Assembly: GCA_025355505.1 (NCBI GenBank)
Contig: JANXZM010000096.1
Location: 99,364-163,363, forward strand
Direction of reading: 5' to 3'
Source: Acidobacteriaceae bacterium
Lineage (GTDB): Bacteria; Acidobacteriota; Terriglobia; Terriglobales; Acidobacteriaceae
DNA length: 64,000 bases
Part shown: positions 516 through 49,560 of the stretch, one piece after another
Numbering within the stretch: the stretch's first letter is position 1
Layout: the number at the start of each line of letters is the position of its first letter
Translations under genes and position numbers: made by a program
Notes under the pieces: model-generated
Database searches by the model: none
Told to the model about the DNA's origin: nothing
The model's input: the letters and a program-made list of their open reading frames with translations, nothing else

Positions 516-881
516 GCTCCGCAATTTGTCGCCGACTCTTTTTCATCACAAACACCCGGGCCATCCATCACAGACATTCACCCGAGAGTGCGCAACAATG
601 GGTCTGATAGGGCAGGGTATAAGTATGCCTGTCTTCCGAGACGGTTCCTGAACCGGACACAAAACGGTTTTTGAACGCTCTTTGACAAAGCAGGGGTTGA
701 GGCGAAAGTGGGAGATTGCTCGTAGCCAAAATTTGAGCGCAGCGAGAACCGAGCCAAGAATTGAGCTAAGTCCTTATTCCGGAATACTTTCCATATAAGT
801 CCTTTAAACTCAACGACCTTGCTGCGATTTCTTCCTAACCATATGATTCCAATAGACAGGGGGGAGGGGGAGGTAGTAAAC
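516..881 (-). repeat. ~350 bp dispersed element, copy A
   Basis: Reverse complement matches 29357..29690 and 48769..49155: C-rich tract, GGAATCATnnGGTTAG, aaaggacttatat..AAGTATTCCGGAATAAGGACTTAG, ending in GTTTGTGATGAAAAAG. Confidence 0.8.
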
Positions 882-936
882 GCGGGTTAATACCTTCGGA
901 GTTAACAGCAGCAAAAGTGGGACAAACCAGCGGATT

Positions 937-29290: not shown

Positions 29291-29356
29291 GGGAGCTGAG
29301 CGTTCGCTTTTGGCTCTTAGCTCTTAGCGAAGCCAGCTTGTGGGGTCGCCCGGTGG

Positions 29357-29690
29357 TGTTTACTGACTAGTACCCCCTCCCCCCTGGTCTATAGGAATCA
29401 TAGGGTTAGCGGGAATTTTTCGGTTCGGTCTTTGAATCGAAAGGACTTATATCAAAGTATTCCGAAATAAGGACTTAGCGGATTTCTTGCACTGCCTCGG
29501 TCTTTATCGGCCTCCGAAGTGGGGCAAATCGTGTCAAGTATCAATTTTCAAAGAACGACGAGAGGGCTTTGGGGAGCGCGCGAACCGTCTCTGAAAACGG
29601 GCACACTGCCCCCTTGGCAATCCGATCTCTATTGTCGCGCATGGCGGGTTGGAAGTCTGTGAGATGGGTCACGGACGATTGTGATGAAAG
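29357..29690 (+). repeat. ~350 bp dispersed element, copy B
   Basis: Long collinear match to 48769..49155, including agtaccccctcccccc, ATCA-AAGTATTCCGAAATAAGGACTTAG, caaatcgtgtcaag, ttttcaaagaacg, agcgcgcgaaccgtc, attgtcgcgc..ggcgggttgga. Confidence 0.85.
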
Positions 29691-29774: not shown

Positions 29775-30014
29775 GTGAATATCACGCTCTCCATTGATGA
29801 GGACCTGGTGAAGGAAGTCCGCAAAATTGCGATTGAACGGGATACGACGCTCACTGGTCTGGTGCGGTCCTACCTGCAAGAACTCGCCACTGAACATGCG
29901 AAATCTGGGCGCAAGCGGAGAGAACTAGAAGGGCTCGAACGGAGCTTTGAGCAGTTCCAGTTCAACGTGGGAAAGCGCACTTGGAAGCGGGAAGACTTGC
30001 ATGAGCGGCGCTGA
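29775..30014 (+). CDS. putative antitoxin (ribbon-helix-helix-like) of a VapBC-type pair
   Basis: MNITLSIDEDLVKEVRKIAIERDTTLTGLVRSYLQEL; overlaps PIN gene by 14 nt. Confidence 0.72.
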   Translation: MNITLSIDEDLVKEVRKIAIERDTTLTGLVRSYLQELATEHAKSGRKRRELEGLERSFEQFQFNVGKRTWKREDLHERR

Positions 30015-30423
30015 CTTTCTCGACACGAACGTGCTCGTGTATGCCTATCAGTTCAATGATCGAGAGAAACAGCGAGTCGCTCATGAGCTGTTAAGAAAAG
30101 CGCTGACGGGAAAGTTCATAATCTCGACACAGGTCTTGTCCGAATTCGCCACCACGTTGCTTCATAAAGCTACGCCACCAGCAACTCCTGAGGCCATGAT
30201 CGACATCCTGGACAGGCTCTCGGGGATCAGGCTCGTTACGCCCGATGGCGACCTCATACGGCGTGCCGTGGAGGCCAAGGCCTCTTATGGACTACATTTC
30301 TATGATGGCTTGATTGTGGCCGCTGCCGAGCGCGCAGCTTGCGAACGAATCTGGTCGGAGGACTTCAACGCCGGGCAGAAATATTTTGGCGTCGTTGTGA
30401 CCAATCCCTTCCATAGGATCTAG
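30001..30423 (+). CDS. vapC: PIN-domain toxin (VapC-like)
   Basis: FLDTNVLVYAYQ..VLSEFATTLLHKA..YDGLIVAAAERAACERIWSEDFNAGQKYFGVVVTNPF. Confidence 0.85.
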   Translation: MSGADFLDTNVLVYAYQFNDREKQRVAHELLRKALTGKFIISTQVLSEFATTLLHKATPPATPEAMIDILDRLSGIRLVTPDGDLIRRAVEAKASYGLHFYDGLIVAAAERAACERIWSEDFNAGQKYFGVVVTNPFHRI

Positions 30424-39611: not shown

Positions 39612-42322
<2,711 letters not shown>

Positions 42323-48684: not shown

Positions 48685-48768
48685 TCGGAGCGGCAAGGTC
48701 GGGCCCCCCAACTTTTTTTTGTGGGGACCGTACTCCTCATTTGGGGTTTTTCGCTCATTTTCCGAGGA

Positions 48769-49155
48769 TGTTTACTGGTTAGTACCCCTACCCCCCCTCC
48801 CCCCGGTCTAGTGGAATCATGGGGTTAGCGGGAATTTTTCCACTTGGTCTTTGAATCTAAAGGGCTTATATCAAAGTATTCCGGAATAAGGACTTAGGGG
48901 ATTTCTTGTCCTGCTTCGGGGTTTGTGGGCCTTCGTAGTGGGGTAAATCGTGTCAAGCCCCCTTTTTCGGGTCGAATCTCGGTTTTCAAAGAACGCTGAG
49001 GTGGTTCTGGACAGCGCGCGAACCGTCGGTGGAGACGGGCCGCACTTCTGCCTGGCCACAGGTCAGTCATCATTGTCGCGCAGGGCGGGTTGGATGTCTG
49101 TGATGAGGGTACAGAAAATTTGTGATGAAAAAGGTATGGCGTCAGATTGCGGAAG
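48769..49155 (+). repeat. ~350 bp dispersed element, copy C, running into a RAYT remnant
   Basis: Collinear match to copies A and B; ends TTTGTGATGAAAAAG..CGTCAGATTGCGGA, shared with copy A. Confidence 0.85.
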
Positions 49156-49172
49156 TGGGAAAGCTCGCGGCC

Positions 49173-49207
49173 TCACACGTCTCGAAAACCGCGAGACATG
49201 TGGCACC
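49173..49207. repeat. REP-like palindrome
   Basis: cacacgtctcgaaaaccgcgagacatgtggcaccc; matches 49414..49452. Confidence 0.75.
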
Positions 49208-49208
49208 C

Positions 49209-49382
49209 GGCATCGAAAAACTGCGCTACATGCATCGCAATCCGGTGAAGCGCGGATTGGTGGAGTCCCCCGACCTTTGGCAGTGGAGCAGTTTTCGAGC
49301 TTACGCTCTTGGGGAAACTGGGCCGGTGAAAATCAATGACTGGGAAGTGCTGAAGATGAAGATTCGACCGCCGGCTGCGTAG
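49209..49382 (+). pseudogene. C-terminal remnant of a REP-associated tyrosine (Y1/IS200-like) transposase
   Basis: IEKLRYMHRNPVKRGLVESPDLWQWSSFRAYALGETGPVKINDW; catalytic N-terminal part absent. Confidence 0.8.
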
Positions 49383-49413: not shown

Positions 49414-49452
49414 CGGCCCACTTCTCGAAAAGCGCGAGAAGTGGGGCACCCC
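49414..49452. repeat. REP-like palindrome
   Basis: gcggcccacttctcgaaaagcgcgagaagtggggcaccc. Confidence 0.75.
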
Positions 49453-49560
49453 CTTTTGGTTTCGGTCAACGTTTAGAGTCAGACCCGCATTGTACTTTCC
49501 CCCGGTGACGCGGCCCACCCGCCGCGGGAGTGTAAAGGATGTCATGAGACTGAACACTTG

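Follow-up and report, generated by a model that had tools for sequence, protein, structure and literature searches.

REP, REPIN and BIME sequences are many-copy extragenic hairpin repeats that are tied to a resident low-copy gene, RAYT (TnpA_REP), and that persist in place over species splits; RAYTs are known from Acidobacteria (PMC3733652; PMC6006769). MITEs and PATEs are dispersed, non-coding and present or absent between species, and intergenic structured RNAs listed in Rfam, such as Acido-Lenti-1 and HEARO, combine covarying hairpins with a multi-copy distribution in one lineage, some of them being tied to mobile elements. The element analyzed here, found in a 64,000-nt stretch of DNA from an Acidobacteriaceae bacterium (hereafter, the window), shares these traits but differs from each group. 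Whereas REPs are palindromes of 20–40 bp whose partner gene encodes a Y1 transposase, the element is ~300 nt long, consists of two separate domains, numbers ~50 copies and has a partner gene of another kind. Unlike for MITEs and PATEs, no terminal inverted repeats, target duplication or parent IS were seen, and, unlike the Rfam RNAs, its right half is confined to one genus in our sample. On the features tested, the element is not a REP, a MITE or an Rfam member; it belongs to a sizeable, previously unlisted family of dispersed non-coding sequences that operates as a repeat population in the manner of REPs or SINEs.

Results

Anatomy of the element

The initial annotation of the window, made from its sequence alone, had described three collinear copies, and these exist essentially where it placed them, at 900..540 on the minus strand (copy A), 29351..29689 on the plus strand (copy B) and 48762..49132 on the plus strand (copy C), with the blocks that it listed conserved in the same order in all three. 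Copy A (540..900, minus strand; 5′ domain at 900-766, 3′ domain at 688-540) adjoins a 3-hydroxyacyl-CoA dehydrogenase gene, copy B (5′ domain at 29351-29478, 3′ domain at 29545-29689) lies between a glpX-type fructose-bisphosphatase gene and a DUF6364/PIN gene pair, and copy C stands before a sigma-70-type factor gene. The pair just downstream of copy B, a small DUF6364 gene overlapping a PIN-domain gene at 29775-30423, is likely a toxin-antitoxin pair. The window also holds, at 41156-41202, an Acido-Lenti-1 RNA (Rfam RF01687, 39.1 bits), next to which a gene of the ATP synthase alpha/beta type lies on the minus strand (39612-41138).

The element is laid out as a 5′ domain of ~130 nt, a variable insert of 0-170 nt and a 3′ domain of ~150 nt. 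The left half can be described as a G/C-rich palindrome, GGAATCAT and two dyads: its C-tract, often preceded by a GGTACC-type palindrome, is followed by GGAATCAT..GGTTAG and then by the dyads. The 3′ domain starts with TTGTCAAAGAGC and ends with GTGATGAAAAA. In compact copies of ~290 nt the two domains touch directly, the stretch between them being an optional insert. In copy C, on the plus strand, the 5′ domain with its C-tract, GGAATCAT and two dyads spans 48762..48897 (nhmmer E 1.6e-42), with dyad 1 (GGTCTTTGAATCTAAAGGGCTTA) at 48846..48868, assigned from its sequence and the motif spacing of 28-29 bp in the family, and dyad 2 (AAAGTATTCCGGAATAAGGACTTAG), assigned from its sequence, at 48873..48897. 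The insert that compact copies lack (48898..48982) separates it from the folded 3′ domain at 48983..49131 (covariance model R1, 96 bits, E 9e-18), where sequence and covariation structure place the hairpins CCGTC..GACGG at 49023..49038 and CTGT..ACAG at 49098..49114.

The ends of the core element (GTACCCC...GTGATGAAAAA; 48782..49132, plus strand, in copy C) were taken from another copy, L018, because its sequence departs from that of its close relatives immediately outside the C-tract and immediately after GATGAAAAA. No terminal inverted repeat, target duplication or transposase of the element was found. At the sites examined for empty-site ends and target duplications, other repeats crowd the same spacers and blur the ends, so that no clean empty site gave exact ends.

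Two details of the core required correction. The perfect palindrome TATTCCGGAATA that the annotation had seen is present in copies A and C, whereas copy B reads TATTCCGAAATA, and a variable 4-nt loop forms the centre of this palindrome across the family. The two GGACTTA units that it had placed about 31 bp apart are better described as GACTTA-like motifs whose starts are separated by 28-29 bp in 91 of 97 copies, the first unit of copy C itself reading GGGCTTA. A sigma-70 promoter in the dyads was rejected, as spacings judged by eye vary between copies.

Family size and distribution

Instead of three copies, the source genome carries at least 51 loci, clustered from BLAST matches with copy C (63 pieces in its own assembly) and later matches. 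Profiles of the left and right parts were built from source-genome copies, copies A, B and C included, which match them with E values between 1e-31 and 1e-42 in the 5′ part and between 1e-29 and 1e-31 in the 3′ part. When these profiles were run on other genomes, many copies that lay outside the profile were found in other species; since these independent copies match as strongly as those of the window, chance is excluded. When 23 further species of the genus were searched, 21 had matches; outside the genus there were few. In the genus, the joint two-domain element occupies ~50 sites, mostly near a gene end. Among left neighbours within 130 bp, 39 of 60 read towards the element (hand count, one-sided p ~0.014); as a cis-regulator of downstream genes the element was rejected, its orientation and distance not fitting such a role.

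No match to the element was obtained among the plasmids and phages searched or in Rfam, in the latter case neither at the gathering score nor even at E 5, and on that ground a known RNA family was rejected. A literature search found no description of the element or of CQH, the partner gene described below. Thus, none of the outcomes that would have undone the initial proposal (a known IS, intron or Rfam family, or a restriction to three loci) arose.

Gain and persistence of copies

Some copies differ in presence between species. Copy C is absent from the orthologous site in the seven related species examined, and the site of the L029 insertion is empty in G008, G018, G020, G001 and G011 and nearly empty in G019. 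Other copies are shared: copy B occurs at the same site in G018, G002, G021 and G009, L011 in G003 and G008, and L018 in G008, among further examples. Of the proposal of a non-autonomous mobile element, mobility is supported for some copies, those with species-specific presence or absence; others occupy fixed sites in several species.

Of 11 pairs of copies at orthologous sites, 8 share 82-87% identity in the 3′ domain and the remaining pairs 74-80%, compared with mostly 40-60% for the flanks, 46% for random DNA and 67% for within-genome paralogs; the 5′ domain often diverges more than the 3′ domain. This conservation suggests that the 3′ domain may be under constraint, a conclusion that gene conversion weakens. 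The reason for the greater divergence of the 5′ domain is seen when L018 is compared with its ortholog L179: the outer flanks are orthologous, whereas the interior of L018, up to the element ends, belongs to the subfamily of its own genome (G000), a pattern that likely reflects gene conversion.

Fold of the 3′ domain

Covariation in the 3′ domain follows a pattern of nested hairpins. Scored against a structure taken from selected copies, covariation in an ordinary, unfitted alignment was 0.159, against 0.048-0.093 for slid pairings. In a model-fitted alignment of 82 copies, which leans to the structure, it was 0.210 against 0.031-0.077, and double-changed cells numbered 111 against 26-46 in this same structure-leaning alignment. 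G-U pairs exceeded A-C appositions by 189:77 in the fitted set and by 46:14 in the unfitted set, and the plus strand is therefore favoured. The compensatory changes thus go beyond the controls, as expected of a structured RNA, although single-stranded DNA could give the same pattern. To judge from these alignments, the right half appears to behave as would a conserved folded RNA, one that Rfam does not list. The earlier suggestion of a regulatory RNA is borne out in so far as the RNA-type covariation is strong.

A zinc-finger-like partner gene

The genes flanking the element revealed CQH, a small zinc-finger-like protein (RCQHIKVNGTQCGSPALR..CYFH..LEDANSIQ..LYALQTAS). The start of the CQH gene adjoins the left end of the element, and the gene reads away from it. 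CQH was present in 27 of the 61 genomes searched, and for 19 of the 30 CQH loci fetched, 5′ or 3′ element profiles matched the upstream sequence; further CQH loci with such a match are L191 and L205, from a wider search, and L206, a second CQH gene of the source genome. The matches include four genera outside the home genus, where scores are lower (L163, L171 and L175); in these other genera of the family, as in the home genus, it is the 5′ domain that stands before CQH. Many of the other leaders show a C-tract by eye, and it was found in 18 of 27 CQH leaders that lacked a profile match, as against 16% of random windows. At L164:2311-2179, the 5′ domain upstream of CQH has the orientation opposite to all others.

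Only some of the CQH loci were found to have the 3′ domain, which was not found in any of the other genera sampled. CQH itself occurred in 16 of the 199 genomes of a phylum-wide sample, all within this bacterial family, and the 3′ domain in the home genome only, under stricter filters and with one genome of the genus sampled.

CQH and the element occur together in six gene contexts in eight species. One CQH clade (~63-85% identical) adjoins DUF2127, DAHP synthase, ETF, RNase PH, HAD or acyl-CoA dehydrogenase genes, depending on the species (context gene names largely read from the sequences), and relatives carry those genes without CQH. The differing contexts could partly represent old paralogs with differential loss. 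Two CQH genes, L157 and L177, have a tRNA-Pro-like sequence just past the stop codon, and a third, L161, has a tmRNA-like sequence there and an integrase-like ORF nearby. A separate dispersed repeat of ~65 bp, seen at L149:826-892, recurs with 85-92% identity in dozens of places across the genus.

CQH matched no family above the curated cut-off in Pfam, NCBIfam or PHROGs. Its structure model, of low overall confidence, comprises a zinc knuckle and a two-helix hairpin only, and a fold search with this low-confidence model gave no match with E below 1. CQH has a short N-terminal C..C..P..C..H knuckle in common with the HGGxSTG/DUF5763-type small zinc proteins, but it falls below every curated cut-off and has a helical hairpin of its own (LEDANSIQ...LYALQTAS).

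Discussion

On balance, we favour an origin of the family from the CQH leader: the copies would be genus-specific, mostly solo, partly mobile non-coding elements descended from it, with CQH as the likely acting protein. In several genera the left half constitutes the CQH leader, and in the home genus it is joined to the folded right half of ~150 nt. From the sequences we infer binding by CQH, transcription and a course of transposition as follows. CQH, the candidate binder, would recognize the paired dyads, so that solo copies would in effect be copies of its own control region. These would spread by occasional transposition, and gene conversion would make them partly uniform. The right half may work either as RNA or in the form of single-stranded DNA hairpins, and such a function would account for its retention.

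Two alternatives carry some weight, although we consider neither of them likely. The element might be a structured regulatory RNA family, itself immobile, that was duplicated together with CQH genes and through ordinary rearrangements and kept for a cellular role. The strong plus-strand covariation and the conservation of the right half at orthologous sites would suit such a family, but the folded half points away from CQH and so cannot be its sense leader, the copies have no fixed relation to a downstream gene, and some of them are species-specific.

It is comparably doubtful that the element is related to REPs, as a longer, non-autonomous form moved as single-stranded DNA by a resident Y1 transposase of the RAYT type with the hairpins as recognition ends. 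RAYTs are on record in Acidobacteria (PMC3733652), and copy C is followed on the plus strand by a REP-like hairpin (49172..49209), by the remnant of the C-terminal part of a RAYT (Y1_Tnp) gene (49211..49382), whose residues are almost identical to the C-terminus of the intact RAYT of L062 (Pfam Y1_Tnp E 8e-11), and by a second REP-like hairpin (49417..49453), the hairpins being recognized from their sequence and the first also from the bias of REPs to lie downstream of elements. Within 500 nt downstream, REP-like hairpins share the orientation of the element in 29 cases and are reversed in 1, and some element subfamilies have a spacer and REP in common. Yet most copies have no GGGGCACCC-type REP nearby, the element has a conserved unit of ~290 nt in two domains and no GTAG-tagged short palindrome at its ends, and its regular gene partner is CQH rather than RAYT. 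In L062 the intact RAYT lies between REPs, with the nearest element copy ~1.5 kb away, and the element was accordingly rejected as a RAYT gene leader. Since the RAYT gene itself lacks the element, we treat the REP adjacency as an association and not as proof of mobilisation. The transposase leader proposed initially thus came close but was not right, IS1595-type transposases being no regular partner either.

A miniature derivative of an IS1595-family transposon is very improbable and was rejected. An IS1595-type transposase gene begins 16-191 nt to the left of the element in each of L096, L098 and L120, and in L021 such a gene comes after a truncated 5′ domain. These neighbours, however, occur at just ~4 of 100 copies and are only ~35% identical to each other, and at none of the four loci does an inverted repeat common to element and IS match the element to the opposite side of the transposase gene.

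Descent from the CQH leader also admits a bolder version, which we regard as a long shot: CQH and the element could form a new type of autonomous mobile unit, in which a small zinc-finger protein that lacks any known recombinase fold would act with a structured RNA or single-strand hairpin to move its own leader and seed ~50 solo copies per genome.

If the family did descend from the CQH leader, an unannotated, lineage-specific zinc-finger gene family would be linked to a large number of sites at which binding or processing may take place. The family would then represent a bacterial repeat population whose resident partner gene is unlike any recognisable transposase, and it would also explain a recurrent class of intergenic DNA in the genus.
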